Positions 26,213 through 44,659 of a DNA stretch of 64,000 nucleotides are shown here, in pieces. Below the pieces are notes generated by a model that was not told the origin of the DNA, searched no databases, and was given only the letters and a program-made list of their open reading frames with translations. Origin of the DNA: Rhodoferax sediminis (GTDB lineage: Bacteria > Pseudomonadota > Gammaproteobacteria > Burkholderiales > Burkholderiaceae_C); the NCBI RefSeq assembly GCF_006970865.1, contig NZ_CP035503.1:4105001-4169000 (forward strand). The letters are read 5' to 3'. The stretch's first letter is position 1, and each line of letters starts with the position of its first letter. Position numbers and translations under genes: made by a program.

Positions 26213-27157
26213 TCAGTCCCCCTCGCCCGGCGCGTACTCGCGCGCGGTGAAGGCGCTGGACGCGGCCAGTGCAGCGCGGCGCTCGGGATCCAGCGCCACC
26301 GGCGAGAACCCGTTGCCGTTGCCCTTGGCGATGGCGTGCAGCAAGGTGGCCAGCGGGTCGGTCTTTTGCTGGTTGTCCCGCTCGTACAGGCCCAGGTGCC
26401 GGGCCAGCTTCTCCAGCGCGTCCATCTTGGAGTGCATCAGCACCTCGATGCCGTACTTGCCCTGCCTGGCGCCGGCGTACAGCGCCAGCGCGCGCGCCGA
26501 CAGGGTGCGCGTATCGCCCAGCACGACACGGGCCTGCCCGTCACCGTGGCACTCGGGGCATCCGGTGTGCGGCGCCTTGATGGGGTTGTAGCCAATGCCG
26601 CCCTGCTCGTCCCAGTCCTCGATCGGCTTGCCGCTGTTCAAGTGCTTCTCGCGCTCGTTGTTGAACTCGGACAGGGTGCGCTGCAACTTGTGGCCTTCGC
26701 CCCAGCAGTAGCGGCAGCAGCCGACTTTCACCTGCACCAGGTCGCGGGCGTCGGCGATCATGATGTGCCAGGCCTCCAGCATCACGCGGTCGGCATCGAT
26801 CTGCGTGCGCTCCTGCTGCGCCTTGCGGGCGGCGGCGATGGCGCTCTGAATCTGAGGTTTTCTGAGGTACTCGTAAGCAAGTTCTGCCGCCGAGTTCGCC
26901 CGGTAGCCTGCCCGAATCGCCGCCTGCGTCCCGTTCAGGTCGATCATGTATTCGTCTACAAACTTCTGCTGCTTGGGCTTCAAGGTCAAGACATGCCTTG
27001 CGGGGTCGCCATCCTCATTGATGGCTGTACGCTTCATGGGTACCTTGGGACTGGACGTGGCAACGCCCGCAGCCTTGTGACGGGGTGCGAGCGCCGGTGC
27101 CTTCTGCGGGCGGGGTTTGGGGGGGATGGATTTTTTCCCCGTCGGTTTTGCTGCCAT
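26213..27157 (-). CDS. Phage terminase small subunit
   Basis: A 314-residue protein from ATG 27157. LKPKQQKFVDEYMIDLNGTQ followed by AAIRAGYRANSAAELAYEYL and RKPQIQSAIA is the classic TerS DNA-binding domain. The N-terminus is Lys/Pro-rich, and the middle has paired Cys motifs (CCRYCWGEGH, CPECHGDGQ). No large terminase, portal or capsid gene is present nearby. In phage satellites a lone TerS can redirect packaging; here it may instead be a prophage leftover. Confidence 0.85.
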   Translation of the reverse strand: MAAKPTGKKSIPPKPRPQKAPALAPRHKAAGVATSSPKVPMKRTAINEDGDPARHVLTLKPKQQKFVDEYMIDLNGTQAAIRAGYRANSAAELAYEYLRKPQIQSAIAAARKAQQERTQIDADRVMLEAWHIMIADARDLVQVKVGCCRYCWGEGHKLQRTLSEFNNEREKHLNSGKPIEDWDEQGGIGYNPIKAPHTGCPECHGDGQARVVLGDTRTLSARALALYAGARQGKYGIEVLMHSKMDALEKLARHLGLYERDNQQKTDPLATLLHAIAKGNGNGFSPVALDPERRAALAASSAFTAREYAPGEGD

Positions 27158-27215
27158 GCCCCGATGATTCCGGACCGTGGCCTGTGTGTCGAACCTTACA
27201 GGGGGTGCGGACGCA

Positions 27216-28787
27216 CTAACGATCCGGTACTTCACGCGCAAGCGCGGCAGCCAGTTCGACGCAAAGATGAAGCACTGCGTATGCTGCGCCAGCATCGATC
27301 GGCACCCCTTTCAGGTGTTGCCCGAAGTTACCAAAGGCATGCACCGCATTTATCAGGAAATAGGTTCCTCTCGTAACACGCTTGGCGCACGGAGCGCTAA
27401 TGCCTCCACCTGTCATGAGGTCGAGCAGGCGCAGTCGTTGGCCCCCGTCGGGGAACGTCGTCTCCCACTGGTTGACCCAGTCGCCCTCGTTACGCTTCCA
27501 GATTGCCATCCACTCGGAAGGTATCCGCTTGTCCGGAACCTCACCCTTCCAGATCAGCTCGAACGCCTGGTTCGCGATGCCACGGACGTTGCTGAGGAAC
27601 ACTTCCGGATGGTCGGGCAGGTCCTCGGTTCCACGTTCAAGGTAGCGTTTCAGCGCCGAGTCTATGCCGTTGAGCTGCCCGAGCCGGCGCTCCAGCACAC
27701 CCCTGAGATTCTTCTGGAAGGCATCGGCCGTGCCGAATAATCGCACAAGCGCACTGCCCTCGTTCGGCTGCTCCTCTAAGTACCTGCCAAGCAAGCGGCT
27801 CGGGCTTTGCAGCTTGTTTGCCGCTGCATGCACGAACCCGCGCTCGATCAGTGTCTCCGCGTCAGCGGCCGCGATACCGGTCCTTGCGACAGAGCCTTCG
27901 TCTAGAACTCGCCGAATGAGATCCTGGCAACAAGGGGGGCAGTCGATCCAGAGTGCATCCAGTTCGTCACGCACCGCCGGGAATGCACTGTCGCACGCGG
28001 CTTTCATGGCTTCGGGGCTCACGGCACCCGTTGTGCCCATCTCGCAAACGGCGTTGAGGACGCCGAGCATGAGTACCGGGAAGCCGTTGCTGGCATTCCA
28101 CAGCTCTGTTTGGGCGCCAGCCGCAAGCTGCTGTTCCGGCATCGTTGCCAGAACAGCCGTCAAGTCGTTCTCATCGAAGCAACCCACTCGCACTGGATTC
28201 GGTTCGAAGATGTTCCAAAAATCGCTGGTCTGAGCGTCTGGATGGCGGATCAAGTCGCGCAGCGTGCGACGACTGGCCGTCACCAGTCGCAGACTGGATT
28301 TGTGCGCCAGTTCTCGCAGCTGATCCCACAGGTTGCGCGTCAGCTGGCCGTTGGACAGCGGCTTGTCAAAGCCATCCATGATCGCCAGCACCTTGGCACT
28401 TTCGTCCTTCAGTGCGTTCAGTACCTCGGCAATGTCCTGGTAATGGTTGTCCTGAGTGTTCCTGAGATGATCAGCATAGTCGGGGTGGCTGGCCTTCAAT
28501 GCAGCGGAGAGCTCACGCGCCAGCCGTTGCATGAACAGCGCATCAGTTTCAGGTGTTTGATGGCCAAGATCCCACACGAGGACGGCCGAATAGGTTGAGC
28601 CCGCCTGCCGCAAGCGCGCAGCCAGTTCATGCAGGATCACTGTCTTGCCCGCAAACCTGGGTCCGACCACTTGCAGATGATCCGGAGTCGCCTTGGTCAA
28701 CGCGCCCGTCATCTTCTGCAGAATGGCTGCCCGCCCCAACATGGGGGGCACCGTCGTGCCCAGTATGGGAAATCGCCTCTCAGGCAT
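27216..28787 (-). CDS. Predicted AAA/STAND-type ATPase, last gene of the defence operon
   Basis: A 523-residue protein starting MPERRFPILGTTVPPMLGRA, a lead-in common to archaeal-type ORC/STAND ATPases. Walker A is GPRFAGKT (42-49), Walker B KVLAIMDGFDK (132-142), and a possible sensor is RLVTASRRTLRDLI. The C-terminal ~300 residues are helical with no recognised domain. Its ATG lies eight bases inside the end of the large fusion gene, so translation is coupled. It shares its general ATPase type with the C-terminal domain of that fusion, and the two may work as partners. Specific function unknown; a regulatory or effector ATPase in defence is inferred from context. Confidence 0.8.
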   Translation of the reverse strand: MPERRFPILGTTVPPMLGRAAILQKMTGALTKATPDHLQVVGPRFAGKTVILHELAARLRQAGSTYSAVLVWDLGHQTPETDALFMQRLARELSAALKASHPDYADHLRNTQDNHYQDIAEVLNALKDESAKVLAIMDGFDKPLSNGQLTRNLWDQLRELAHKSSLRLVTASRRTLRDLIRHPDAQTSDFWNIFEPNPVRVGCFDENDLTAVLATMPEQQLAAGAQTELWNASNGFPVLMLGVLNAVCEMGTTGAVSPEAMKAACDSAFPAVRDELDALWIDCPPCCQDLIRRVLDEGSVARTGIAAADAETLIERGFVHAAANKLQSPSRLLGRYLEEQPNEGSALVRLFGTADAFQKNLRGVLERRLGQLNGIDSALKRYLERGTEDLPDHPEVFLSNVRGIANQAFELIWKGEVPDKRIPSEWMAIWKRNEGDWVNQWETTFPDGGQRLRLLDLMTGGGISAPCAKRVTRGTYFLINAVHAFGNFGQHLKGVPIDAGAAYAVLHLCVELAAALAREVPDR

Positions 28788-31700
28788 TTTCTTCCTCCGC
28801 TTCCGTGCGGGCGCGGCTGGCCACCACGTCTGCATCCTGTTGTTGTTCGATCCAGTCCGCCATCAGCGGAATGGCCAAGCGATATTCACCATCGCCGATC
28901 TCCCCCGAGAATTCAATTAGCTCGAGCTCGCGCAGATAGCTCAGATCGGCATCCAAAGGTTCATCTTCGACATCCACGCCGACTTGAGCCAATTGCTCGT
29001 GCAGCGTGCCGAATCCGATGTGCGTTCCCTGCTTGAAGCTCCGCGCGCACAGCAACAAGATGAGCTGCCGGCGATGGCGGCCGGCCTCCGGGCCCAAGGC
29101 TGCGTAATCCCACAAGCTGGCGAAGTGCTCGTTGTCCCGCACCAGCCCATGGGCTGCGTCGTTAACCACACTCGCGGTGATCGACCTGCTCTTGGTCTGC
29201 ACCGCGTAGTCGAACACACGGTTGCACAGGCACTGCATCAGATAAGGGTGCCGTGCCGTGACCTCGATCACCCGCTCAATCGCTTCCTGAGAGAACGCCA
29301 GTTGATCACGCACGGGCTCGGTGACCACCTTGCGTGCGCTCTCCGTATCCAGTACTGTCACCGGGATGCTTGTTCCCAGACCATACAACGCAGACCAGTA
29401 TTCCTCGCGCAGTCGTTTCAGGCGGCGCGATCCTGTCAGGATCGCCGAGAACTTCGGGTAGGTCTGAATCAGGAAGCGGATGTTCTCCGGCACCTGGGGT
29501 GATGTCACTCCGTTGTCGATACCCTCCTGCAGCTTGTCAAACTCATCGAGCATCAGCACCAGGCCAATGCCCAAGGGCTCCAGAACGCTCAGCACCAGTT
29601 CCAGATACTCGCGGAAATCGGCAAATGGTGATTCGGCGCCGATGCCCTCACGGCAGGCCCGCGCTACACCCAACGGCGGCTTACCGGCGGCAAAGGTCTC
29701 GCCGTTGGGCAGCGGGACATCGATGCCCAGTTTGGTCAGCGCCGTGGCGATGCTGCGGGCGATCTCGCGAAACACCTCTGCCGTCGGCACACCTACGACT
29801 TTTGCAGCACCTTCGGCCCCTTGGAGGCTGGCATAGACAGCCAGCCAGCCCGGGATCGCGGAGCGCCCTTCCAAATGTTTGAGAATCGAAGTTTTGCCTG
29901 CCCGTCGATTGCCTTCGAGCAGTACAACGTTGCCGTGGGTCGCGATCTGCCGGCTGATCTTGCCAAGCAGTTCATCACGCCCATAAAAGACACTGTGGCC
30001 ATGCATCGGCTCCAGCGGGCTGCCGGTCACATAGGGGCTGCCACCCAGTTCAGCGGGCAACGAGTTGGCCGCTTTCTCGGGTTCGGCGACGCGGATCGCC
30101 AACTCGATTTCCCCCTCGACCATCGGCCCGGTCAGGACCCCTGCGCGCCAAAGCAGGCGCAATGACAGGTCGCCGCCTTGTTTGGATACGTCACCACGCA
30201 AATGGATGGGGAAAATGCCCCGCCCCCCGAGATAAGGAACCTCGACGATGCCCCAGTCTGGCTGCGTTTCCACACGCACATTGCGCAGTGGCAAAGGCCC
30301 TATGTTTTCCATCTCAACGGAGAACTCGGCGAAGCTACCCGCCTCCAGTGATCCCGGCGAGGTCCGCACCTGTAGCCCAACGGTATCGACCAGGTCCGCA
30401 ATGGCAGCGCGCAACCATTCCCGCAGACGCTCAGTAATGGCGCGTGCTTGCGATTCAGCGGGCCGGTGGCCCGTGGTCTGAATTAACACCGCCTGCACGG
30501 CTCGCTCGGCACTCTCCAGCACGTTGAGCAGCCCGGGGCTGGGCGGAATCTGGGCCACCCCTGCCATTGCCAGTAGAGTATGAGTGAGCGGCGTTAGCCA
30601 GCGGGCAGCCTGACTGCTCACCTGATCCTGATCCAGCCAACGCAACGAAGTGCTTGCCAGCGCAGCGACGGGTTCGAAGTGCGCCAGTGCTGGTGTGTCG
30701 TCCAGGCCGCCTATAAACTTGGGCACTTTGCCATCCAAATCGGCCAGCCAGTTGGCGAGGCGATCAGACTCGCTACTGTCCGTAGCCTGAGCCAGGAAAG
30801 TCAGTGCATCAGTGCCGAAATCGCGGAACTCGGCCGCAGCTCTGGCCTGTATCGGCAGGGCTGCCAACGGTATCGGAAGCTCATTCAGTACAGCCCGGTT
30901 GAGATGCTGAATCACGGCACCACGCGACTGCGCCGACAACCAGTTCTGACACGCCGGGCTAGCCAGATAGGCCAGCAAATATCCCGCATCGAGCCGATCT
31001 TGATCGGTACGCAGCACGTAGAGCCCATTCGCAGCGACGGCACCAACAGCGCCGTTGCGCACCAGCGCAGCCTTACCGATGGTGCCCGACTTGGATACCA
31101 GTACATCACCCGGCAGCAGTGCCCAGCGTTGTTCGAGGCTGGCTAGCTCCGGCCGTAACCAACTTGAGGTGCGTTCAACCTTGCCCTGGCTCAGGTCCCT
31201 AATGCGCACATAGCCCACGGCGCGCTCGAACGGTGGCTCGTCCAGTAAATCGGCCGACTTGATGGAGCGGCCCGCTGATACCTTGGCCACGGTCGACAGC
31301 GGCGCCACCAACCCGCTATCGCCCAACACGTCCTTGAGGCTGGCCAGCAGCTCGTCCAGTCCGCCTTTTTCACGGCGGCGCGGCGACAAGTCCCAGTCGG
31401 CCGCAGCCAACTGTTCCATACCCACGTCCCATACCGACCTCGCCAGCCCGCCTATGCCCGGCTCACCCTCCGGAGCGCCACCAGGTGGAAGTTCACGCGG
31501 CTTACGCAGTTCAGGGCGACGAACCTCGTCCGCCAATTGCGCCGCGATGGCGGCGTGGATCAGCGGCGCCTTGCGGCCTGAACGCTGCTCGAACAAAGGG
31601 GCAGCATCTACCATGCGAACCCGGCTCGTTCCGCCTTGCTTGCTCAACACCAGCAGGCTGCCCTTGACGCTGGTGTAGGGTGCAAAGGCGCCAGCGGGCA

Positions 31701-32769
31701 GCCCGATCACGGCTTCAACCTGCCCCTGTTCCAGCAGGGAGCGGCGCAACTCACGCTCTGCCCCACCACGAAACAGAAAACCCTCGGGCACGGCAATCAC
31801 CGCACGTCCGTGGGCCTTGAGCTGTGACAGCGCGTGCTGAATGAACAGACCCGTGCTGTCGTTGGTGGCAATGGCGAAGTGCTGGTAACGCCAAGGCTCG
31901 CGGCTGGTCTTGGCGCCGATGGGCGGGTTGGCCAGCACCACATCAAAGCCCTGGCGGCTGGGGCTGCTCAGCGACTCGCGCTCCAGGCTGTTGCCCAGCT
32001 CCAAGCGGGGCGCTTCGATACCCGCCAGCAGCATGCGCGTCAGACCGATCAGGAAAGCGCTGGCATTGATTTCGATACCCGCCACTTCCAGCAACGCACC
32101 CGGGCGACGCAGTTCGTTGCGGCTGCGCTCGGCCTGCTGCCAGGCCGCCACCAGAAAGTTGCCCGAGCCAAAGCACGGGTCGTACACGCGCTCGCCTGGC
32201 TGCGGGTTGGCTAATGCAGCGACGAGGCGGGCGATGTTGACCGGCGTAGCGTACTGGCCATCGTAGGGATCGCCGGTTTCAGCGATGGCCTGATCGAACA
32301 CATCCAGCAGCGCACGGCGCTCGCTCGGGGTTTCGAACGGCAGATCGGCCACCCACCGTACGAAGTCGTGTAGGTATACGAAATTCACTTTCAAAACGCG
32401 GCGCAGTGGCTCAGTTAGCGCGTGCAGATAGGCTGCCACAGGGTGCGCCGCATCGCCGCGCAGCCTTTCGACGTGCCGCGCCAGCTCCTGCAGCCGGTCG
32501 GCGATGGCTAGAGGGGATTCCAGACGCCCCCAGTGTCGCCACTGCAGCGGCCCAGGCAACAGCGGCTGGTAAGTTCGATCCTCAAAGACCGCCATCGCCT
32601 CCTGCTCCACATCCTGCAGGTCAGCCCAGCGCAGCAACAGAAAAGCGGCGAACACCTCGCGGATCAGCGACCTGGACTCGCTGGCGGGCATTTCGTTGCG
32701 CAGCACGTCCAAGGCGGCGACCCACTGGGAGGTGGCTTCGCGCAGGTGCTTGTCTTGCACGATGCTCAC
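28780..32769 (-). CDS. Fusion: type I methylase-like + specificity half-domain + ATPase (1329 residues)
   Basis: GTG start at 32769, overlapping the hsdS stop. Domains in order: HsdM N-terminal helical region (about 1-150); N6-adenine methylase fold (170-420) with motif I DPCFGSGNF (197-205) and motif IV NPPIG (281-285); one target-recognition half of an HsdS (488-650, VAPLSTVAKVSAGRSIKSAD, then LLPGDVLVSKSGTIGKAALV); a beta-sandwich region (800-895) like CARDB/Ig folds; an AAA/STAND ATPase (925-1200) with Walker A GNRRAGKT (953-960) and Walker B VLMLDEFD (1071-1078); and a C-terminal helical/winged region. The aromatic residue normal at the fourth place of NPP(Y/F/W) is Ile here, so methylation may be weak or lost. 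The neighbouring HsdM keeps NPPY. Possibly a DNA-sensing ATPase rather than a methylase. Confidence 0.88.
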   Translation of the reverse strand: MSIVQDKHLREATSQWVAALDVLRNEMPASESRSLIREVFAAFLLLRWADLQDVEQEAMAVFEDRTYQPLLPGPLQWRHWGRLESPLAIADRLQELARHVERLRGDAAHPVAAYLHALTEPLRRVLKVNFVYLHDFVRWVADLPFETPSERRALLDVFDQAIAETGDPYDGQYATPVNIARLVAALANPQPGERVYDPCFGSGNFLVAAWQQAERSRNELRRPGALLEVAGIEINASAFLIGLTRMLLAGIEAPRLELGNSLERESLSSPSRQGFDVVLANPPIGAKTSREPWRYQHFAIATNDSTGLFIQHALSQLKAHGRAVIAVPEGFLFRGGAERELRRSLLEQGQVEAVIGLPAGAFAPYTSVKGSLLVLSKQGGTSRVRMVDAAPLFEQRSGRKAPLIHAAIAAQLADEVRRPELRKPRELPPGGAPEGEPGIGGLARSVWDVGMEQLAAADWDLSPRRREKGGLDELLASLKDVLGDSGLVAPLSTVAKVSAGRSIKSADLLDEPPFERAVGYVRIRDLSQGKVERTSSWLRPELASLEQRWALLPGDVLVSKSGTIGKAALVRNGAVGAVAANGLYVLRTDQDRLDAGYLLAYLASPACQNWLSAQSRGAVIQHLNRAVLNELPIPLAALPIQARAAAEFRDFGTDALTFLAQATDSSESDRLANWLADLDGKVPKFIGGLDDTPALAHFEPVAALASTSLRWLDQDQVSSQAARWLTPLTHTLLAMAGVAQIPPSPGLLNVLESAERAVQAVLIQTTGHRPAESQARAITERLREWLRAAIADLVDTVGLQVRTSPGSLEAGSFAEFSVEMENIGPLPLRNVRVETQPDWGIVEVPYLGGRGIFPIHLRGDVSKQGGDLSLRLLWRAGVLTGPMVEGEIELAIRVAEPEKAANSLPAELGGSPYVTGSPLEPMHGHSVFYGRDELLGKISRQIATHGNVVLLEGNRRAGKTSILKHLEGRSAIPGWLAVYASLQGAEGAAKVVGVPTAEVFREIARSIATALTKLGIDVPLPNGETFAAGKPPLGVARACREGIGAESPFADFREYLELVLSVLEPLGIGLVLMLDEFDKLQEGIDNGVTSPQVPENIRFLIQTYPKFSAILTGSRRLKRLREEYWSALYGLGTSIPVTVLDTESARKVVTEPVRDQLAFSQEAIERVIEVTARHPYLMQCLCNRVFDYAVQTKSRSITASVVNDAAHGLVRDNEHFASLWDYAALGPEAGRHRRQLILLLCARSFKQGTHIGFGTLHEQLAQVGVDVEDEPLDADLSYLRELELIEFSGEIGDGEYRLAIPLMADWIEQQQDADVVASRARTEAEEENA

Positions 32770-33953
32770 AGCTCCCCGGCGAAGGCTTTGCGGAGGATGG
32801 CTTCGCGCATCCCTTGGCTTTCAGCCCTGGCAGCTTTCAATTCAGATACAAGCTGGTTCGCCTGCGCTTCGCGTTGTTCCATCTGGCCAAGCAACCGCTC
32901 TTGCACAGCAATGGTCGGCACCGAAAATGGAATCGAGCGCAAATTCTCAGAATTGATGTTGAACTGTCCAGCGGATGTGCGCCGACGGCTATCGATTTCT
33001 GATCGACCATTCGTGCTGTTCAAGAAATACGCGAGGTAACGCGGCAACACCTTTGTCTGATCAACACGAACACGGATCAGGTACGAGGCAAAGCCATAGG
33101 CCAGCTCTTGATTCCCTCCATCAAACACGGCGCAGCGTCCGACCAATTCACGGCTGCCGTTGGTTCGAACAAACAGCAGGTCGCCAGTCGAGAGACGAAC
33201 ACGTTCCGCATCGGCATCAATCAGATTGCAGTACTTCAGGTTGTCAAAATTCACCGCACCCCGAGCGACATTTGGGATACGCAAAATCGGCAAACCTTTC
33301 GGTTCGGAATGGCACTTCCGCGAGGTGCCGTACCTTGTTTCCATCGCAATTTCAGAGATGGTCATCAATGGGGCAATGCTCACTTGTGATGCGAAGACCT
33401 CGTTTAGCACGGAAGGCAGAACCGCGCTTGCTTCCTGAAACGTCTCCCGCCTAAGCCCGTTGATCTCCTCTACTCGCTCCATGCACTGCTTGATGCGGGC
33501 GACGATGCGGCGCTGTTCTGCGCGATCTGGATATGCGAAGTCGATTCCGCGAATCGACTTCGCAGACAGGTGCTTGACAGTCACGTAGGGGGTGGCGTCC
33601 TCGATCTGTTTGAGGTGGCTGTTGATGCCGAATCCAACAAATTCAGGATCGATATCTTCCGAAAAATCGATCAGCCGACAGACTCGTTGGTTCAGCAAAG
33701 CCTTATCGCCACGCCAAGTGTAGCAACGGAATTCACCGTCCATCCCAACTAGCAGATCGCCGCTGCGAACCACAAACCTTTGGTCATAGGTGCCGTTGTA
33801 TCGAACAACTGTTGCAGAGCCGTTCTTCAGGTCACGAATGCGGATTAAAGGTGCGCCCCCAGATTCCGAGAAGAGATCGGAGTCGAAGGCAAATCCGTTC
33901 TGTACATCAAGAAGCTCACCGAGCTTGCTCTTCTTCCAGCCGGCTGGTATCAC
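32766..33953 (-). CDS. hsdS: Type I restriction-modification specificity subunit
   Basis: A 395-residue HsdS with two target-recognition domains, each followed by a helical spacer: GWKKSKLGELLDVQNGFAFD to RRIVARIKQCMERVEEINGL, then ISEIAMETRYGTSRKCHSEP to LRSIPFSVPTIAVQERLLGQ. It defines the bipartite DNA target of the HsdRMS complex. The start is GTG at 33953, overlapping the hsdM stop (GTGA), and its own stop overlaps the next gene the same way. Confidence 0.94.
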   Translation of the reverse strand: MIPAGWKKSKLGELLDVQNGFAFDSDLFSESGGAPLIRIRDLKNGSATVVRYNGTYDQRFVVRSGDLLVGMDGEFRCYTWRGDKALLNQRVCRLIDFSEDIDPEFVGFGINSHLKQIEDATPYVTVKHLSAKSIRGIDFAYPDRAEQRRIVARIKQCMERVEEINGLRRETFQEASAVLPSVLNEVFASQVSIAPLMTISEIAMETRYGTSRKCHSEPKGLPILRIPNVARGAVNFDNLKYCNLIDADAERVRLSTGDLLFVRTNGSRELVGRCAVFDGGNQELAYGFASYLIRVRVDQTKVLPRYLAYFLNSTNGRSEIDSRRRTSAGQFNINSENLRSIPFSVPTIAVQERLLGQMEQREAQANQLVSELKAARAESQGMREAILRKAFAGEL

Positions 33954-35431
33954 AAGCCACTTTCCAGCAGCGTTTCGAGCTCGTCCAGCAACTCGGTGAT
34001 TCGAGCTTCCTTGGTCTTGATCGACTGCACCAGCTCCAGCGCCGGTCGATGCTCGTAATCATCGACCTTGTTCGGATTCTTGGCCGAGAGGTCATAGCCC
34101 TTGGCCACGATGTCGGCCAAGGGCACCGTCCAGGAGTTGTCGCCTTCCACACGGTCCTTCCACTTGGCTACGAAGTCGGGCAGCTGGTTGCCTGCAATCG
34201 GCTTGCGGGTCTGCTTGAGCTCAAAGCCGTCGTTGGCCAGGTCGTAATACCAGACAGACTCGGTGCCCGAGCCGTCTTGCGCGCGGTCGAAGAAGATCAC
34301 ATTGGTCTTGACGCCGGTGTAGGGCAGGAAGCAGCCTGCCGGCAGCGACAGGATGGTATGCACCTTGAACTGCTCCAGCAGCTCCTTGCGCACCTTCTGA
34401 TCCGGGCCGCCACGGAACAGCACACCCTCGGGGATGACCACTGCGGCGCGACCGTCTTTGGCCAGGTTGGCCATGATGTGCTGCAGGAACAGGCACTCGG
34501 TAGCGCTGGAGCGTACACGGAAGTTTGTTTGCAGCTCCTGCGCCATCTTGCCGCCATAGGGCGGGTTGGCAAGGATGACCCGGTACTTGTCCTTCTCGGC
34601 CACGTTCTGGCTGTGCACCTCTAACGTGTTGGTCAGCTCCAGATTGGCGCCCTCGATGCCGTGCAAGATCATGTTCATCGAGCCCAGCAGGTAGGTCAAT
34701 GGCTTGAGCTCCAGGCCAAAGAACGCCTTGTGCTGCAGGTCGTCGAGCTGCTTGCCGCTGAGGGTATTGTGATGGCGCAAGTAGTCGGCGGCTTCGCCCA
34801 GGAAACCCGCTGTACCAAAACAAGGGTCGTAAACATGCTCGCCGGGTTGCGGCTGCACTACCTGCACCATGGCGCGGATGATGTGGCGCTGAGTATAGAA
34901 CTCGCCGGCGTAGCCGGCTGAGTCGGCCGCCACGCGCTTGAGCAGGTCTTCGTAGATTTCCGACAACACGATGACATCGGTCTCGCTGGAGAAGTGGAGC
35001 TTGTCCACTTGCTGCACGACTTTGGCGAAGCTCACGCCCCGGCGGCTGTAGTTGCGCACGTTGTCGAAGATGCGGCGGAAGCGCTGCGCCAGCGCATCGT
35101 TGCCCAGGCCTTTGGCCGGGTCCGGGCTGGTGAGCTTGATCCACAGCTTGCCATCGACGAATTCGAGCATCTCGTCGGGGTGGTCGGTGTCTTTCGCCCA
35201 GTGGCTCCAGGCGTAGTCACCCGTCAGGCGGCGCTCATAGGGCGTGTCGTCGAAGGCGGCCTCTTGCTCCTTGCGCGTTTCGGTTTCGTCGAAGGCCTTG
35301 AGGAAAAACAGCCAGGCGAGTTGCTCGACATAGTTGCGGGCATCCACGCCCTCAGCGTTGAGCTGGTCGCAGGCGTTCTTGACGATCTGCTGCACTTCCT
35401 GGCGGCGGTGATCGGAGTTGTTTTCGGTCAT
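33950..35431 (-). CDS. hsdM: Type I restriction-modification DNA methylase subunit
   Basis: A 493-residue N6-adenine methyltransferase. HsdM_N helical domain (1-150, NYVEQLAWLFFLKAFDETET), then the methylase core with motif I DPCFGTAGF (202-210) and catalytic NPPYGG (289-294), both intact. With HsdS it modifies host DNA at the recognition site and is the methylase core of the restriction complex. It starts 33 bases after hsdR ends. Confidence 0.95.
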   Translation of the reverse strand: MTENNSDHRRQEVQQIVKNACDQLNAEGVDARNYVEQLAWLFFLKAFDETETRKEQEAAFDDTPYERRLTGDYAWSHWAKDTDHPDEMLEFVDGKLWIKLTSPDPAKGLGNDALAQRFRRIFDNVRNYSRRGVSFAKVVQQVDKLHFSSETDVIVLSEIYEDLLKRVAADSAGYAGEFYTQRHIIRAMVQVVQPQPGEHVYDPCFGTAGFLGEAADYLRHHNTLSGKQLDDLQHKAFFGLELKPLTYLLGSMNMILHGIEGANLELTNTLEVHSQNVAEKDKYRVILANPPYGGKMAQELQTNFRVRSSATECLFLQHIMANLAKDGRAAVVIPEGVLFRGGPDQKVRKELLEQFKVHTILSLPAGCFLPYTGVKTNVIFFDRAQDGSGTESVWYYDLANDGFELKQTRKPIAGNQLPDFVAKWKDRVEGDNSWTVPLADIVAKGYDLSAKNPNKVDDYEHRPALELVQSIKTKEARITELLDELETLLESGL

Positions 35432-35464
35432 GTCGGTTCCTGTTGTTCTTCTGGGCCGGCCGCA

Positions 35465-37756
35465 TCAGGCGGCCATAGCCACGTAAAGATGCTGCTTGAC
35501 CAGTTCGAGGTCGGTCTTGAGCAGCGCCGGCCCACCGTAGCGCTGAGTCAGCGTGGTGAAACTGCCGAACTGCTCGGCAAATTGCGGGGCGCCGTAGGTG
35601 CGTGCCTGTTCAAGGTCGTCGATGCCGAACAGGCGGTAGTGATCCAGCGCGGTTTGCCACACATGGGTTTTGAAGCGCTGGCTCTCAGGCTGCGCGGTTT
35701 CGCCCAGATGGTCCAGCAGCCAAATTTGATCTTGGTCCCACAGTCGATTGGCGCGGTCAGCGCGGTTCGGCACGCGAGGCAGCTGAAAGCCGATCTTGGC
35801 TAGGATGTCGACATCGTCGGCATCGGGCAGGTCGAGGTAATGCCGGAAGGCCGCTGGGTAGATGTCGCGGTCGCGCAAGGCCTCGCGCAGCTCCTGACGA
35901 CCGCCTTTGTCTATCCAGATGCGCAGCAGCTCATCCAAGCCCTTATGGCTAACGTCGAGGATGAACTCGCGCGATTGCTGCGTGTATTCCTCGAACGGCA
36001 CCTTGCGTCCGTCGGCCAGGCAGACGTAGCGGTTCTCGGCAGAGATGACCACCCGCACTCCTTGCGCCAGATATTTGGCGCTGGGCTCCGCTGCCTTTGA
36101 CGGTTTAGTCCGCTTCTGCTCGTAGCCTTTCTGGCGGTTTGCCGGGTGGCCATCGAACTCGGCATCCTCCAGTTGGCTAGCGCCGGAGTAGTCGAAGATG
36201 GTGAAATAGCGCTTGTCAATGTCCTCGCACAGCCGGGTGCCACGCCCCTTCATCTGCTTGTAGAGAATGGCGCTGCGCAGCGGGCGCACGAAGACGACGT
36301 TTTTCACGTCGGGCGCATCAAAGCCCGTGGTGAGCAGATCCACTGTCACGGCCACGCGCGGGTTGCTGGGTCCCACCACGGCGAAGTTGCGCTCGAGTTG
36401 GTGGCTGTTGCGTTCAGCCCGGGTAATGCGCGCGGCGTAGTCGGCGCTGCCCGAGAGACGGCGTAGCTCCTGCGCCATGAAGGCGGCGTGGGTGTCGTCC
36501 ACGCAGAAAATGATGGTTTTCTCGTCGCGCAACTCGTACTTGCCCAGCACCTCCCAGAGGTCCTCCGCAATGGCCTTGGTGCGATCCGGCATGCGGATAT
36601 CACGCTCGAAGTTGGCCGTGGTGTAGCGCTTGCCATCGGGGCCCGTGTAACCGTCCTCATCGACGTTGGTGATGCGCTCTTCCAACAGGTAGGGCACCAG
36701 GAAGCCGTCTTCGATGGCCTGCTTGAGGCTGTAGATGAAAACCGGGTCACCGAAGTAGTGCTGCGTGTCGCGGCGCTTTTCCTCTGCGGTCAGCGAGCGG
36801 TCGCCATCTTCGAGTTCGCGCGGGGTGGCCGTGAGGCCCAGCTGCAGCGCGCCGCCGAAATGTTTGAGAACGCCGAACCAGTCGCCAAAACCCGAGCGAT
36901 GACATTCGTCGATGACCACCAGATCGAAGAAGTCCGGGTCGTAGTGTTCATAGACCTTCTTGCCTTCCAGCTCCTCATCGAGGCTCTGGTAATTTGCAAA
37001 GAAGACCTTACCGACCAGATGCTGCCCTTGCGCAACGGTGTCCTTGTCAATCTGCACGCGCTCCGAGGCCGTGAAGGCCGAGAAGGCACGATAGGCCTGA
37101 TCCTTGAGACTATTGCGATCGGTCAGGAACAGCACGTGTTCACGCTTGAGCGCCTTGCCGTTGAGCAGCTTCCAAATGAGCTGAAAGATGGTGAAGGTCT
37201 TGCCGGTGCCGGTGGCCATCAGCAACAGCACACGGTCGTCACCTTGGGCGAACTGCCACAGCGCCTTATTGATAGCGATGTCTTGATACGGGCGCACGCC
37301 TCTGCGTGACACCTGGTCCATGTGATAGCCAGCGGCGAACGCGCCCTCCCAGCGGGACCAGTCAACCGACACGCCCATCCGGGCGACCAACTCGTCGGGC
37401 GACGGCGGTGCACTCAGTGACTCGAAAGCGCCGGTTTCGTTGTCCGTCAAGATCCAGTCATCGCCATTGGAGGCAATCGAGAACCGCAGCGAGAGTCGGC
37501 GTGCATAACGGGAGGCCTGCTGCATCCCATCGGCAGCGCTTTCGGACTCTGACTTGGCTTCCACGATGGCCAGCGGCACACCCCGGCAGCGCAGCAGGTA
37601 GTCGGCAATGATCGACTGGGTTTCGTCGTACATCGTGTCGCCGGTCAAGTTGACGCGCCCGGGCCCGATACGCAGCTGCTCCTGCCACGCCCAGCCGAGC
37701 GCCGCCAAGCGGGGCTCGATGAGTTCTTTGCAGGTCAGTCGTTCGTTGCGTGCCAT
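35465..37756 (-). CDS. hsdR: Type I restriction endonuclease, motor and nuclease subunit
   Basis: A 763-residue HsdR. N-terminal PD-(D/E)xK nuclease region (about 40-90: DYLLRCRGVPLAIVEAKSES). Superfamily 2 helicase with Walker A MATGTGKT, DEAH-type box VIDECHRSGFG, motif III LGLTATP, and motif VI region KQMKGRGTRL. C-terminal helical domain linking to HsdM. It is first in the five-gene operon. ATG 37756 is preceded by AAGG at eight bases and, about 70 bases upstream, by a sigma-54 promoter. Confidence 0.95.
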   Translation of the reverse strand: MARNERLTCKELIEPRLAALGWAWQEQLRIGPGRVNLTGDTMYDETQSIIADYLLRCRGVPLAIVEAKSESESAADGMQQASRYARRLSLRFSIASNGDDWILTDNETGAFESLSAPPSPDELVARMGVSVDWSRWEGAFAAGYHMDQVSRRGVRPYQDIAINKALWQFAQGDDRVLLLMATGTGKTFTIFQLIWKLLNGKALKREHVLFLTDRNSLKDQAYRAFSAFTASERVQIDKDTVAQGQHLVGKVFFANYQSLDEELEGKKVYEHYDPDFFDLVVIDECHRSGFGDWFGVLKHFGGALQLGLTATPRELEDGDRSLTAEEKRRDTQHYFGDPVFIYSLKQAIEDGFLVPYLLEERITNVDEDGYTGPDGKRYTTANFERDIRMPDRTKAIAEDLWEVLGKYELRDEKTIIFCVDDTHAAFMAQELRRLSGSADYAARITRAERNSHQLERNFAVVGPSNPRVAVTVDLLTTGFDAPDVKNVVFVRPLRSAILYKQMKGRGTRLCEDIDKRYFTIFDYSGASQLEDAEFDGHPANRQKGYEQKRTKPSKAAEPSAKYLAQGVRVVISAENRYVCLADGRKVPFEEYTQQSREFILDVSHKGLDELLRIWIDKGGRQELREALRDRDIYPAAFRHYLDLPDADDVDILAKIGFQLPRVPNRADRANRLWDQDQIWLLDHLGETAQPESQRFKTHVWQTALDHYRLFGIDDLEQARTYGAPQFAEQFGSFTTLTQRYGGPALLKTDLELVKQHLYVAMAA

Positions 37757-37826
37757 TGAAGTTGCCTTGTTATCCAGTTCCCGGTGTTAGCCGGAGCCAT
37801 AAAAAAAGTTGTGATCAAGTACCAAT

Positions 37827-37844
37827 AAGCAGGATGCGTGCCAA
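37827..37844 (-). promoter_or_regulatory. Sigma-54 (-24/-12) promoter of the hsdR operon
   Basis: On the minus strand TTGGCACGCATCCTGCTT matches the sigma-54 consensus YTGGCACG-N4-TTGC with one mismatch and the obligatory 10-base spacing between the GG and GC elements. Transcription would start near 37817, about 60 bases before the hsdR ATG. It lies immediately after the stop of the sigma-54 activator gene, which points to that protein as its activator. Confidence 0.82.
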
Positions 37845-39341
37845 TTATCCAACCCCGTACTTTCGCAGCCAGTAGCTCAGGGTCTGGTAGCTGCCAATTC
37901 CGAGCAGGCGCGCAGCTTCAGACTTGTTCCCATGCGTCTGAGCCATGGCTCGCTCAAGGTAGTGGCGCGCGACACTCCCAATGATGTCTGGGAGTTGAAT
38001 TGCCTGATCTAGAGGGCGACCGAGGATCGTTTCAGCCTTGGGGGCGACCGTCACTGCCAGGGACTCAGCCACGTCTTGACTAGTGATCCTGCCGCCAACG
38101 GCCCAGATGCTGGCACGCAGCAACGTGTTGTGAAGTTCCCGGACGTTGCCAGGCCAGGAGTGCTGGACAAGAAGGTTTCTTGCGGCAACATCCAATTTTT
38201 TATGTTTATAACCCGGCTGGGATGCGGCTTCGGCGTTTATTGACGCCAACAGCGAGTCAATCAGGATGTTGAGGTCACCTTCGCGTTGGCGCAGAGGAGG
38301 CAGGAGCAGCACACCCACCGCTAAGCGATGGAAGAGGTCTTCCCGGAATCGGCCACCCCTGATTTCATCGGGCAGGACTCGATTGGTGGCAGCGATAACC
38401 CGGATGTCGATGGGTTTGGCCCGGGTGGCGCCGACCCGGGTGACTTCGCGCTCTTGCAGGACTCGCAGCAGACGGACCTGGGAGGCCAAGGGCAGTTCGC
38501 CGATCTCATCGAGGAACAGGGTGCCGCCATCGGCGGATTCGAAATAGCCGGCGCGAGCGGACGTTGCCCCTGTGAAAGCGCCCTTTTCATGGCCAAACAG
38601 CTCCGCATCGACCAACTCTTGAGGAATCGCGCCGCAGTTGACGGCGACGAAAGGCATGCTGTTGCGCGCGCTGGCCTGATGGATCGCGCGCGCGAACAAT
38701 TCCTTACCGGTGCCGGATTCGCCCTGAATGAGCACGGGCACCTCGCGCACCGCGAGGCGATGCGCCATTGCGACGGTACGCTTCATCGCTGCGCAGCGAT
38801 GAACAATAGATGTGAAAGCCGGACTTTCGGGTGGCAAGCCCAGCATCAGACGAGCAAGTGAGTCGTCCGCCTGTTTGCTGACAACTGGTACAAACTCGGC
38901 CGATAACTCAAATGGAATGCTGACCTCTTTGACGCCTTGCTCGCGCGAAGACTCGATCAGTCTAGCCGGATACCTCGTCTTGGCAAGCAAGAGCCAGATA
39001 GCCGCCATGGCCGGCGTGCCTGGGCTTAGATGGAATGTGAGGGCGGCCGAGGGTGACGCTAGCTTGACCTTCTCGATTACGTCCGTGGCTGCACGAAAGA
39101 TTTCTTCGAAGCTGGTGGGGCTCGTGAGCTTGACTTGGTGTGGCACAACTGGTACCTCAACCTGCTCACCAAGCCACAACGCAAAAGCGTGGGTTTTCTG
39201 CACACTGTGATCTGACAATAAGTGCACCGAACCAAATCGAAACGCTTTCATCGCGCCCAAGATAGGGCCTTGTGAATCGACATCACCGCACTCTGATGCG
39301 CGCAAGTCTGTATTGCCCAGCCACGCCAGCAATATCGCCAT
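37845..39341 (-). CDS. CARF-domain sigma-54-dependent activator (RtcR-like)
   Basis: A 498-residue enhancer-binding protein. Residues 1-155 resemble the CARF sensor domain of RtcR: AILLAWLGNTDL at the start, LTFHLSPGTPAMAAIWLLLA (101-120) in place of the CARF ligand loop, then RYPARLIESS. The AAA+ domain has Walker A GESGTGKE (207-214), an intact sigma-54-contacting GAFTGA (254-259), Walker B LFLDEIGE (275-282) and WPGNVREL (396-403). A Fis-type helix-turn-helix ends the protein (GNKSEAARLLGIGSYQTLSY). It is transcribed in the same direction as hsdR and is followed directly by that operon's sigma-54 promoter. Known CARF domains bind nucleotide second messengers or RNA ends, so it may sense such a signal. 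RtcR itself controls RNA repair genes, but no rtcB/rtcA is here. Confidence 0.88.
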   Translation of the reverse strand: MAILLAWLGNTDLRASECGDVDSQGPILGAMKAFRFGSVHLLSDHSVQKTHAFALWLGEQVEVPVVPHQVKLTSPTSFEEIFRAATDVIEKVKLASPSAALTFHLSPGTPAMAAIWLLLAKTRYPARLIESSREQGVKEVSIPFELSAEFVPVVSKQADDSLARLMLGLPPESPAFTSIVHRCAAMKRTVAMAHRLAVREVPVLIQGESGTGKELFARAIHQASARNSMPFVAVNCGAIPQELVDAELFGHEKGAFTGATSARAGYFESADGGTLFLDEIGELPLASQVRLLRVLQEREVTRVGATRAKPIDIRVIAATNRVLPDEIRGGRFREDLFHRLAVGVLLLPPLRQREGDLNILIDSLLASINAEAASQPGYKHKKLDVAARNLLVQHSWPGNVRELHNTLLRASIWAVGGRITSQDVAESLAVTVAPKAETILGRPLDQAIQLPDIIGSVARHYLERAMAQTHGNKSEAARLLGIGSYQTLSYWLRKYGVG

Positions 39342-39692: not shown

Positions 39693-41027
39693 TCATTCAA
39701 AGTCTCCCGAGTTCCTGCTTCCGCGTTTGGGAATCGGCCCCGCCCAGTCGCTGAACTGCTGCAGCTCACCGGCAAAGTGAAGAGGCACTAGCCCCTGCGG
39801 CCCGTTGCGGTGCGCGACGATTTCGAGCTCGGAGAAGCCCTTGAAGTCCGGGCCCTTCTTGCTCAGGGGATGGGCATGGTCGTTGAACAGCAGCGCGATC
39901 TGGTCGGCAGCGGCCTCAATGGCCCCAGAGTCGCGCAGATGAGTCATCGTGGGCCGGTGGTAGCTCTCGTCGGCCTTGCGACTCATCTGCGACATCACCA
40001 CCACCGCGATCTGCAGATCCATGGCCAGCGCCTTGATGCCGTTCACGATCACGTCCAGCTCGCGGTTCCGGTTTTCTTCCCCGGCGCCCTGCATGAGCTG
40101 CAGGAAGTCGACGAAGAGCACGTCCAGCCCATGCTGGCGCCTGACGCTCATCGCCTTGCGCCGGATGTCCAGCAGGTTCAAGGCGCATTGCTCGTCGTGG
40201 ACCAGCTTTAGCTTGCCGAGCCGGTGCGCCGCCTCCGTCACGCCCTGCCACATGGGCTGATCCGATGCGTCAGCACCGACGATGCGGCCCAGGTCGATGG
40301 AGCTCATCGCCGCGGTGTGCCGGTGCATGAGCTCCATCACCGACATTTCCTGGCTGAGGAACAGGACGGTGTACTGGCGCGCCATGTTGCGCGCCAGGGC
40401 CAGCGCCAGCGCCGTCTTGCCGTGCTTGGGGCGGGCGCCGATGACCATCATCCCGCCGCGACGCAGGCCGCCGTTCAGGATCCGGTCCAGTCCGGCGATG
40501 CCGGTGGGGATAGCCGGGTTCTTGCCTTCGCTCAGGTCCTGCAGCAACGTCAGGTAGTCCGCGAGCGACTGGTTGATGTGCTGGGGCTCGCGCTGTGCCT
40601 TCACGGTCGCGAGTTTGGCCAGCACCATCTGGGCGCGGTCGACCTGTTCGGCCGGCGTGCCCTTGCCCTGGGCAATTTCGGCGATCTCGTCCGAGGCGGC
40701 CAGCAGCTGACGCTTGCGGTGGTGGTCGGACACGATTTCGGCATAGCGCACCACGTTGCGCGCGCCGGTGACGTATTGCGCGATCTCGTTCAGCGCCATC
40801 AGGCTCTCGTCGTCGGCCTTTCCCGCCTCGGACAATGCGTTGTGCAGCGTGATGATGTCAAAGACCTTGCCGGCGGCCACCTGCTGCAGCATGGCCCGAT
40901 AGATGTCCTGGTGAAACTCGACGTAGAAGGCTGTAGGGTCCAGCCCTGAGATGCGCGTGGCGGCCGCGTTGTCGGCCAGCAGGCTGCCCAGCAGGCCCCA
41001 TTCCGATTCGATGCTGTGCGGGATCAT
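39693..41027 (-). CDS. DnaB-like replicative helicase (phage/island type)
   Basis: A 444-residue helicase from ATG 41027 (MIPHSIESEWGLLGSLLADN). N-terminal DnaB domain (SLMALNEIAQYVTGARNVVR), then the RecA-like core with Walker A GARPKHGKT, Walker B LDVLFVDFLQLMQG and VVVMSQMSRKAD. The replicated DNA is probably the island itself. It follows a helix-turn-helix replication gene, as in many prophages and satellites. Confidence 0.9.
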   Translation of the reverse strand: MIPHSIESEWGLLGSLLADNAAATRISGLDPTAFYVEFHQDIYRAMLQQVAAGKVFDIITLHNALSEAGKADDESLMALNEIAQYVTGARNVVRYAEIVSDHHRKRQLLAASDEIAEIAQGKGTPAEQVDRAQMVLAKLATVKAQREPQHINQSLADYLTLLQDLSEGKNPAIPTGIAGLDRILNGGLRRGGMMVIGARPKHGKTALALALARNMARQYTVLFLSQEMSVMELMHRHTAAMSSIDLGRIVGADASDQPMWQGVTEAAHRLGKLKLVHDEQCALNLLDIRRKAMSVRRQHGLDVLFVDFLQLMQGAGEENRNRELDVIVNGIKALAMDLQIAVVVMSQMSRKADESYHRPTMTHLRDSGAIEAAADQIALLFNDHAHPLSKKGPDFKGFSELEIVAHRNGPQGLVPLHFAGELQQFSDWAGPIPKRGSRNSGDFE

Positions 41028-41772
41028 GCGCCCCCCGGGTTTTCTCGATGACCTGTGAGCGGCCATTGCTGGAAAACAGGTACTTGATGTCAGCGCGCCA
41101 GTTCTCGTGCCCTGCGCTTCGGGCCACGCGGCCCATGACGAAGTCGTTGTCGCGGGCCCGGGTGAAGTAGCCGCGGAGCCAGGCCAACGCCTCGCCTGCC
41201 GTGGTTGCCCGTGGGGTGCCGTCCGACCTCGGTTCCGTGAGTACCCATTTCCAGAAGATGCCAAAGTACTTCTTGCGGTCGTCGCCCATCAGTTTGATCG
41301 TGGGCAACTCGGGCAGGACCTCGTGGTACAGGTCGCGAATGGCTTGGTGCGGGCAGGCAGGAAACTTGGTTTTCTGCGGACCTGACGGTTCTTGATGGTT
41401 CAATGATGGATTGGCTGCAATTTCTTGCAGGGGTTTCGCGCAATTTATTGCAGCCCCCACGGCAATCTTTTGCAGCCCTGCAATTTTTTGCACCCCTGCA
41501 GATTTTTGCAGCCCTTTGATGTCAATTTTGTAGAGGTTGCAGCCCTTGGGGCCTTGAGCGACATGCACACTCAACTCACCAGAGTCCTGAAGCTGACGCA
41601 AAAGATAATTTGCTGCTCGTGACTGGACGCGGCACTTCCTGGCCAGCGTGGCGACGGCTGGATAGGCCCGGCCGTCATCGTCAGCGAAATCCGCAATGGC
41701 CAACAGCATGAGTAACGGGCTGCCCCCGTGCTGCGAGCCGGCCCAGACCTGAGACATGACCTGGATGCTCAT
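40858..41772 (-). CDS. Helix-turn-helix phage-type replication protein (end probably frameshifted)
   Basis: The N-terminus (MSIQVMSQVWAGSQHGGSPL, then LLMLLAIADFADDDGRAYPA) is the helix-turn-helix common in phage replication initiators, which deliver a DnaB-like helicase. The middle has repeated LQKIA-type residues, then AIRDLYHEVLPELPTIKLMG. As read, the frame runs 170 bases into the helicase gene. In a run of six G on the minus strand (41036-41031), one extra G would place a TGA stop overlapping the helicase ATG (ATGA), like other junctions in this cluster. The true end is therefore probably near 41024. Confidence 0.75.
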   Translation of the reverse strand: MSIQVMSQVWAGSQHGGSPLLMLLAIADFADDDGRAYPAVATLARKCRVQSRAANYLLRQLQDSGELSVHVAQGPKGCNLYKIDIKGLQKSAGVQKIAGLQKIAVGAAINCAKPLQEIAANPSLNHQEPSGPQKTKFPACPHQAIRDLYHEVLPELPTIKLMGDDRKKYFGIFWKWVLTEPRSDGTPRATTAGEALAWLRGYFTRARDNDFVMGRVARSAGHENWRADIKYLFSSNGRSQVIEKTRGAHDPAQHRIGMGPAGQPAGRQRGRHAHLRAGPYSLLRRVSPGHLSGHAAAGGRRQGL

Positions 41773-41975
41773 TCTGTCAAGCCCATCACCCGATCAAGCC
41801 ACTGCTCCATAGCGTCCAGGCCGCGGAGCTCTCGGGTCAGTGCCCACCGGGTGGCGATGTACACCACGGGAGTGAGGTCCCCCTCGATGCGGTGCAGCGA
41901 AATGCCGGCCAGGGCCGCGCGCGCCTGCAGGGTCGCAAAGCGTTTTGAATCGGGAGATTCCGGTGGGCGCGTCAT
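41769..41975 (-). CDS. Small hypothetical protein of the replication module
   Basis: A 68-residue protein (MTRPPESPDSKRFATLQARA, then ALAGISLHRIEGDLTPVVYI and LDRVMGLTE). It overlaps both neighbours by four bases (ATGA), good evidence that it is a translated member of this cluster. It resembles short phage-related proteins of betaproteobacteria; no function recognised. Confidence 0.75.
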   Translation of the reverse strand: MTRPPESPDSKRFATLQARAALAGISLHRIEGDLTPVVYIATRWALTRELRGLDAMEQWLDRVMGLTE

Positions 41976-42298
41976 GCGGCACCCCCGATCTGGCCAAGGT
42001 ACACTTTTGCCGCGCGCAGGTTCGGCAGCGCGCGCGATATGCCCAAGCGAGGAGCGCTCACGAGCACCGACGCGCCGCTCAGCGGGTACAGGCGCAGTCC
42101 GATCCGCTCGAACTGGCGTGCCAGCCTTGCGAATGTGCTGAAGTCGTCGGCGATAGCTTGCAGGGCCCCGCGATTCTGCCTAGAATTCACGCACAGAGTT
42201 TTTTGATTCAAGGGGCCTGCAGCATGTGGTGTGCTGCGGGCCTCGTCATTTGCGGGCGCGCTGCGCCCCGCCGTGTAGGCGCTGGTGGGGTGTTCCAT
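41972..42298 (-). CDS. Hypothetical protein of the replication module
   Basis: A 108-residue protein starting MEHPTSAYTAGRSAPANDEA. The C-terminal half (FSTFARLARQFERIGLRLYP, LSGASVLVSAPRLGISRALP) looks folded. It overlaps the next gene by four bases and starts nine bases after the AlpA-like gene. No recognised domain. Confidence 0.7.
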   Translation of the reverse strand: MEHPTSAYTAGRSAPANDEARSTPHAAGPLNQKTLCVNSRQNRGALQAIADDFSTFARLARQFERIGLRLYPLSGASVLVSAPRLGISRALPNLRAAKVYLGQIGGAA

Positions 42299-42307
42299 GG
42301 TTGCACC

Positions 42308-42607
42308 TCACGCTGCGCTCTGAGCTTCGATCCAGGCCCGCACATCGCCCACTTTCCATGCCGTTACGCGCTCGGACAATTTCACGGGTTTTGGGAATGT
42401 GCCGGCTTTTGTCATGCGCCACAAGGTGGGCGCGCTGAATGGCAACGGCGCCGGCGTCTCGGGTCTTTTGGGACTTTGGACGAGCTGCGATTCCCGAATA
42501 AATGCGCTGTTTGGGAGCGCATCGAAAACCGAATGAAGGATGGGTGCCTTTTGCGCCGGGATGCTTGAGGCGATAGGCGTTTTAGGTGACGTGGGTTTGT
42601 GTGGCAT
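42308..42607 (-). CDS. AlpA-family phage/satellite regulator
   Basis: A 99-residue protein whose last 50 residues form a winged helix-turn-helix of the AlpA/excisionase type: LPFSAPTLWRMTKAGTFPKP, then VKLSERVTAWKVGDVRAWIE. In P4-like elements AlpA activates integrase/excision genes. The N-terminal 45 residues are Pro/Ser-rich and probably unstructured. It stands first in the minus-strand replication cluster. Confidence 0.85.
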   Translation of the reverse strand: MPHKPTSPKTPIASSIPAQKAPILHSVFDALPNSAFIRESQLVQSPKRPETPAPLPFSAPTLWRMTKAGTFPKPVKLSERVTAWKVGDVRAWIEAQSAA

Positions 42608-42702
42608 TGTGCGAGCCTTCCTGTGAATGAAGGCCCGACGATGCCGGGTTTGGGTGTCGCTGTGCCCGAATTCGGTTTGTCGTTCCCGAATTCGGTTTTC
42701 CG

Positions 42703-43377: not shown

Positions 43378-43428
43378 GCCACCCCCTTAAATGGTGTCCG
43401 AGTACTAGCTAAAACAGTCGGGCCAGGG

Positions 43429-43451
43429 TCCCCGATTTTCACGATCGGGGA
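43429..43451. terminator. Hairpin upstream of the intact IS630-family element
   Basis: TCCCCGAT and ATCGGGGA form an 8-bp stem with a 7-base loop. No T run follows on either strand, so terminator function is uncertain; it may protect the downstream gene from IS-driven transcription. Confidence 0.4.
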
Positions 43452-43459
43452 TCAGCCTA

Positions 43460-44637: not shown

Positions 44638-44659
44638 TAGGACTGGCAAAACTGTTTTA

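Follow-up and report, generated by a model that had tools for sequence, protein, structure and literature searches.

A methylase-like fusion and a second ATPase recur as a gene pair, often beside type I restriction genes and a CARF-type sigma-54 activator gene

Genes at the locus

We describe a six-gene operon in a 64,000-nucleotide stretch of the Rhodoferax sediminis genome (hereafter the window). It encodes a putative sigma-54 activator (ACT), the three subunits of a type I restriction-modification system (HsdR, HsdM and HsdS), a fusion of a methylase-like part, a target recognition domain (TRD) and an ATPase (FUS), and a second ATPase (ATP) (Table 1). All six reading frames lie on the minus strand at the positions given by an initial annotation of this DNA, apart from the start of the ATP gene, which was corrected to 28787 instead of 28835 because homologues start at an internal MPERRFPILG. 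The genes had also been described as joined by overlaps. This holds for three of the five junctions, with 4-base overlaps at hsdM/hsdS and hsdS/FUS and an 8-base overlap at FUS/ATP, but not for hsdR-hsdM and ACT-hsdR, which are separated by gaps of 33 and 88 bases. The motor and nuclease motifs of HsdR, the NPPY of HsdM, the two TRDs of HsdS and their arrangement in one operon identify a type I restriction-modification system, whose HsdR scores 527.9 bits against the EcoAI/FtnUII model of NCBIfam (NF046051), just below the cut-off of 550.

Table 1 Genes and features of the operon in the window.
Feature	Coordinates	Strand	Basis
ACT: CARF - AAA+ sigma-54 activator - helix-turn-helix (HTH), 498 aa	37845-39341	minus	Pfam, PADLOC, model fold
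Sigma-54 (-24/-12) promoter-like site TGGCAC-N5-CTGCT, between ACT and hsdR	37828-37843	minus	motif and conservation
hsdR, 763 aa	35465-37756	minus	intact motor ATGTGKT, DECH, TATPR and nuclease VEAK
hsdM, 493 aa	33950-35431	minus	catalytic NPPY intact
hsdS, 395 aa	32766-33953	minus	two TRD stretches; varies among loci
FUS, 1329 aa: degenerate HsdM-like methylase, one TRD, middle part, ATPase	28780-32769	minus	
FUS residues 164-409, N6_Mtase-like; motif IV NPPI (residues 281-284)	31543-32280	minus	
FUS residues 486-650, single TRD, conserved across loci	30820-31314	minus	
FUS residues 910-1329, AAA_16-like ATPase, conserved Walker A/B	28783-30042	minus	
ATP, 523 aa: STAND/Orc-Cdc6-type ATPase (residues 1-344) and helical C-terminal domain	27216-28787	minus	
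ATP residues 345-523, helical, invariant His491, possibly HEPN-like	27219-27755	minus	weak profile similarity

The FUS-ATP pair and its catalytic motifs

A scan of genome contigs with an alignment of FUS yielded 48 loci, of which 45 (L001-L045) are treated here as a family; the other three (L046-L048) had little in common with it beyond ATPase similarity and were set aside. ATP lies directly behind FUS in 44 of the 45 loci, the exception being a contig that ends within FUS (L017). The FUS tree (40 rows) spans 11 phylum labels, with many metagenome bins among the rows that are possibly mislabelled. One locus labelled as a Klebsiella pneumoniae metagenome-assembled genome (L041) groups with an environmental Pseudomonadota bin, and its label looks doubtful.

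The row ACT-hsdR-hsdM-hsdS-FUS-ATP is found again at 20 other loci, some of which have an additional gene inserted and three of which have a broken or contig-cut ACT. The activator does accompany these genes elsewhere; its absence from them would have spoken against the initial annotation. Four loci (L027, L029, L030, L038) have ACT-FUS-ATP without Hsd genes, as does L031, which our grouping of the FUS tree counts with them though it holds just a 36-residue ACT tail. A third layout, hsdR-FUS-ATP without hsdM or hsdS, was found in a Citrobacter locus (L006) and on an Acinetobacter ursingii plasmid. In L036 and L025, FUS is preceded by short stretches resembling HsdR and HsdS, as if hsd genes had been lost there. 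Overall, ACT or its end lies upstream of FUS in 25 of 45 loci, at full length in 21 and broken, contig-cut or as a tail in the others (L001, L032, L045 and L031), while in seven (L016, L017, L024, L028, L035, L037, L040) the contig is too short upstream to judge. Judged by these gene orders, FUS and ATP form a two-gene unit, accompanied by HsdRMS in some loci, by ACT alone in others and by neither in the rest. This unit, like the eroding methylase half of FUS described below, had been missed by the initial annotation. In two planctomycete loci (L013, L023) ACT and hsdR are separated by an additional gene of some 620 residues; that of L013 (2862-4727) matched no PADLOC family.

Among 299 genomes of the window's own family, a full-length match to FUS was found in the window's genome only, the other matches listed covering mainly the methylase part; FUS is therefore sparse and probably mobile. 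A plasmid search with FUS residues 428-1329 matched three Acinetobacter ursingii records, and phage records gave no match to these residues. None of 74 pattern matches in viral contigs was a FUS relative, nor did E. coli genomes hold a near match to the Citrobacter locus.

PADLOC and NCBIfam models matched the FUS and ATP proteins partially or weakly. In Pfam, FUS matched N6_Mtase, one TRD and, weakly, AAA_16, its C-terminus staying below threshold for both AAA_16 (25.9 bits, cut-off 32.6) and nSTAND1 (17.3 bits, cut-off 27.1). We compared the motifs of FUS in 40 rows, comprising the window and 39 loci. Walker A and B show only small changes. Motif IV departs from the canonical [DNS]PP[YFW] in 25 rows, taking the forms NPPI, DPPI, NPPV, QPPV, APPW, VPPW, VSPW, HPPW, TPVT and ATPI, and with its NPPI the window protein lacks the motif of an active N6-adenine methylase. 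In such enzymes, loss of the aromatic residue of motif IV weakens or abolishes methylation. HsdM of the same loci has NPPY in 25 of 25 cases. Among 119 close FUS homologues, 104 carry NPPI like the window and seven a canonical motif.

These motifs bear on the possibility that FUS-ATP is an independent, BREX-like modification defence, in which FUS would methylate a constant self site and the ATPases would block unmarked phage DNA. Its motif I, at the S-adenosylmethionine (SAM) site, is largely kept, 12 of the 40 rows have the permitted NPPW, and the TRD is constant. However, motif IV has been lost in various ways in most rows, including the window, and motif I varies too (DPCFGSA and others), and we consider such a defence improbable.

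Erosion extends to HsdR in the two hsdR-FUS-ATP loci seen. There DDST and SDTS replace the DECH of motif II, motif III is lost and so is the arginine of motif VI, and motif IV of the accompanying FUS reads TPVT and HPPV. DECH is kept in all 25 other HsdR rows and in 118 of 121 rows of a wider set, in which two relatives of the Citrobacter protein, one of them representing a cluster of 20 sequences, share the loss. The methylase, and here the restriction subunit, have thus by their motifs lost catalysis while the ATPases are retained. The two pseudo-HsdR genes (L006, 7714-9921; L120, 8439-10685), paired with FUS-ATP and without hsdM or hsdS, sit on very long branches; since the HsdR tree with these rows is saturated, one origin is not distinguishable from two.

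The conservation of the proteins differs as well. Median identities among five close loci (10 pairs) were 89% for HsdR, 88% for HsdM, 27% for HsdS, 73% for the FUS TRD and 75% for the FUS ATPase; over 24 rows (23 for HsdR) they were 68, 69, 26, 37 and 48%, respectively. By these values, the target of HsdS is swapped between loci and FUS does not follow. FUS could be an accessory type I subunit whose fixed TRD lends HsdR and HsdM a second, constant target, the ATPases loading or remodelling the complex on DNA, as ATPases beside the methylases of BREX are thought to do. This would explain the operon order: FUS lies in the hsdRMS operon and looks like an HsdM joined to half of an HsdS, HsdR and HsdM are highly conserved (median 68-69%, 24 loci), as if tied to common partners, and the hsdR-FUS-ATP layouts suggest that FUS can replace HsdM and HsdS. 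Nonetheless, four loci (L027, L029, L030, L038) have FUS-ATP with no hsdR, hsdM or hsdS nearby, and the HsdR found alone with FUS has lost its motor motifs, which leaves nothing to target. We view an accessory role as rather unlikely.

The second ATPase was modelled with a mean predicted local distance difference test (pLDDT) score of 88.2. Its residues 1-344, with a P-loop (GPRFAGKT) and nucleotide-binding, helical and winged-helix domains, have the composition of a STAND NTPase and match Orc/Cdc6, archaeal SSO1545/PAB2304-type ATPases, CED-4, plant NLRs and Avs3 (Foldseek, VIA list). In BFVD, ATP had clamp-loader-like matches.

The activator and the sigma-54 site

ACT matches the PADLOC model RtcR_PspF2--CARF_AAA_HTH over residues 2-497 (656.7 bits) and, in Pfam, RtcR (25.2 bits), Sigma54_activat and HTH_8. 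It has an AAA+ domain with the conserved GAFTGA loop and a C-terminal HTH, and its N-terminal domain (about residues 1-146), which had been called CARF-like from its sequence, is indeed predicted to adopt a CARF fold in a structure model. ACT is not RtcR proper: it reaches 344.7 bits against an NCBIfam equivalog cut-off of 650 and adjoins restriction genes, not rtcBA. The window's genome has one rpoN and one RtcR-domain match, which is ACT itself.

Directly past the ACT stop codon lies the site TGGCACGCATCCTGCT. Sites were scored against TGGCACN5TTGCW with double weight on GG and GC (maximum 15). Because matches to the motif are at chance level in the window alone, conservation across loci was used, in a set comprising the window and 24 loci with ACT. 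All 25 loci have a site behind ACT that scores 13 or more, and in 24 it reaches at least 14 (L003 has 13). Its start falls 3-8 bases past the last ACT codon in 19 loci; the remaining six positions are +42, +84, +113, +420 (L001, with a broken ACT frame) and, twice, -16. The site of L030 is identical to that of L038, and L031, with its ACT tail, has a site of 14. The background of sites scoring at least 14 is 0.026 per kb and strand across 45 of the loci, true sites included. Where no ACT was seen, sites precede the first gene in L019 (15; same genome bin as L027) and L016 (14), L009 and L011 have sites of 13, and the best sites of L004, L006, L010, L014, L018, L025, L026, L036, L039 and L043 score 10-12. 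The good sigma-54 promoter claimed earlier for hsdR thus stands by its conserved position, not by its motif in the window. This conserved -24/-12 position supports sigma-54 control of the operon.

The same data speak to the view that the locus is an ordinary type I restriction island with incidental gene order and motif, constitutive expression and FUS-ATP as a passenger. Motif matches of this quality do occur at chance level in the window, and the hsdRMS set is otherwise normal; but the recurrence of the same site in the same place in every locus of the set, across phyla, and the near-constant pairing of FUS with ATP make this very improbable.

The ACT family is wider than the FUS-ATP system. 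A strong ACT match was found in 28 of 398 genomes of the phylum. Among 19 ACT regions compared (L100-L118; L101 is probably the same record as L012), FUS-ATP is present in one. In 15 of these regions ACT is followed by an HsdR, in most cases one of another type with some 1130-1190 residues; in L109 it lies roughly 3 kb past a second ACT. Behind the scored ACT, a site scoring 13 or more is present in 15 regions and missing from L109-L112. Two plasmid relatives of ACT (L121, L122) sit ahead of VWA, phosphatase, kinase and AAA genes, and the switch family therefore seems to drive several defence modules; in one of the two a DUF2357 gene follows, as in CoCoNuTs. One plasmid has a good site behind ACT (14), the other a poor one (12). 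These neighbourhoods fit earlier reports that CARF-NtrC activators are often associated with restriction-modification (PMC4012209) and that RtcR stands in superoperons with type I restriction-modification (PMC11090510).

Interpretation

The interpretation that we favour, with a probability of about one half, is an infection-inducible restriction operon with a paired ATPase sensor, in which the methylase-like half of FUS probably serves for recognition and not for methylation. It is plausible that, as had been proposed, the whole restriction and ATPase set is off until a ligand binds the activator. By analogy with RtcR, which binds tRNA halves with 2',3'-cyclic phosphate through its CARF domain and thereupon oligomerises (PMC7790460), and which can be triggered by a prophage (PMC9879122), the inducer may be an RNA-end signal: CARF would restrain the AAA+ domain of ACT, and ligand binding would lead to oligomerisation. 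ACT would then open the sigma-54 promoter behind its own gene, whose site is conserved, for expression of hsdRMS, FUS and ATP. HsdRMS would be expected, from what is known of its family, to cut incoming DNA without its methylation, with a specificity swapped among loci. FUS would not be mainly a methylase; its degenerate fold and constant TRD may mimic one HsdM-HsdS half, and their target would be either an invariant DNA feature or a phage protein directed against restriction enzymes. Its ATPase half could form a switch together with the STAND-like ATP, which may act as switch or executor. More speculatively, the C-terminal domain of ATP could be the output and, were it a HEPN RNase, the RNA fragments it makes could in turn act on CARF.

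A bolder version, which we hold only tentatively and think doubtful as a whole, would make FUS-ATP the bacterial equivalent of those plant immune receptors that work in pairs and carry an integrated decoy. By mimicking a restriction enzyme, a dead methylase-TRD would lure phage DNA or the factors with which phages counter restriction, with one ATPase switch fused to it and a second STAND ATPase as executor, armed by the CARF/sigma-54 alarm; where the layout is hsdR-FUS-ATP, the restriction enzyme in its entirety would be the decoy. A decoy or sensor would account at once for the loss of catalysis, the constancy of the TRD and the layouts with a pseudo-HsdR.

Several observations weigh against the inducible sensor. 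Among 38 loci with enough contig upstream, 13 have no ACT (L004, L006, L009, L010, L011, L014, L018, L019, L025, L026, L036, L039, L043), so FUS-ATP can do without this switch. Matches to the sigma-54 motif with at most two mismatches number 39 in the whole window against 48.5 expected. Motif IV of FUS is canonical in 15 of 40 rows (the 12 with NPPW and one each with DPPF, NPPF and SPPW), and FUS may therefore methylate in some lineages. In most CARF domains of the RtcR family, the basic residue found in other CARF pockets is absent (PMC4012209), so the ligand may differ. As for the ATP C-terminus, the arginine of the HEPN R-x4-H motif is present in 9 of 48 rows and missing in 39, including the window (Gly there), and DUF4145 and HEPN_Swt1 each matched one of 35 ATP members, weakly (E about 0.1). 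His491, within a [GR][DN]xx[QE]H motif, is invariant in 48 of 48 rows; hhalign aligned this motif to the GN..H of DUF4145 with a probability of just 7.5%, five other comparisons giving 0.1-1.9% (HEPN_Swt1 0.4%), and the VIA list for ATP, which barely covers residues past 344, holds no HEPN chain. By Pfam, PDB profile and hhalign comparison, a HEPN domain here is suggestive at best, a lead rather than a result.

Restriction is usually regarded as always on. A type I enzyme behind a conserved sigma-54 site, presumably needing a ligand-gated activator, makes inducible restriction and its signal directly testable. The strongly conserved FUS-ATP unit occurs across phyla, and the erosion of its enzyme core, together with a recognition domain that stays constant, suggests that bacteria have converted components of a restriction enzyme to sensing.

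Genomic setting and known systems

The operon is flanked by phage-type genes (DnaB, O-like, terminase small subunit, excisionase, integrase) beside a tRNA-Arg. The flanking genes (26213-27295 and 39693-45994) are reminiscent of a phage satellite with defence cargo, with no structural genes among those tested. A 16-base direct repeat (16432-16447 and 46068-46083) equals the 3' part of tRNA-Arg(ccg) (46061-46136), which the integrase gene (44660-45994) adjoins; the repeats are candidate ends of an integrated element of ~29.6 kb containing the operon. An IS21-type istAB pair (17623-19937) and a DDE_3 transposase gene (43486-44649) lie inside it. In a hand-chosen, non-random sample of 18 neighbour proteins from 13 FUS loci, PADLOC families matched near seven: LeoA and ZorA (L014), pAgo (L013), HerA (L011), Avs1a (L006), subtilase (L043), PbeA (L009, weakly) and WYL (L026). 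The chosen neighbours in L010, L015, L019, L025, L029 and L039 gave no match. L009 additionally carries McrBC.

The initial annotation regarded the system as undescribed, which claims too much. CARF-NtrC activators with the same architecture as ACT (PADLOC RtcR_PspF2) and predicted sigma-54 control of adjacent restriction genes have been published in 2014 (PMC4012209), as have CoCoNuT superoperons in which, as in the window, an RtcR-like CARF gene comes first, type I restriction-modification next and more defence genes behind, with a proposed RNA cyclic-phosphate signal (PMC11090510); the switch with restriction is therefore not new as a prediction. The content of PMC4012209 on these activators does not include FUS-ATP, the promoter position or the eroded methylase and HsdR among what it describes. 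We found no description of the FUS-ATP pair in the literature listings and passages searched, and a BREX study (PMC12839542, 2026) holds nothing like it in its content on CARF, HsdM, STAND and others.

The RtcR of the RNA repair operon shares CARF-AAA+-HTH with ACT (PMC7790460). No McrB or McrC Pfam match was found in the six proteins, which sets the operon apart from CoCoNuT/McrBC systems; FUS-ATP stands there instead. EcoAI/FtnUII-type systems have the same hsdR, hsdM and hsdS with intact motifs, but in the window these lie behind a sigma-54 site and FUS-ATP follows. MADS likewise combines methylase, specificity-like and ATPase genes, and mad2, mad5 and mad8 were weakly matched; the best MAD2 and MAD5 scores in the six proteins (93.5 of 720 and 63.2 of 400 bits) speak against membership. 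Nor does the operon belong to BREX, with no PglZ match in the six proteins and PglX models weakly matched by HsdM and FUS. PARIS and PrrC-type systems are anti-restriction sensors. Compared with these and with STAND/NLR proteins (Avs3, plant NLRs, CED-4), the suspected sensor here would consist of a methylase-TRD that has one ATPase fused to it and another as its partner.

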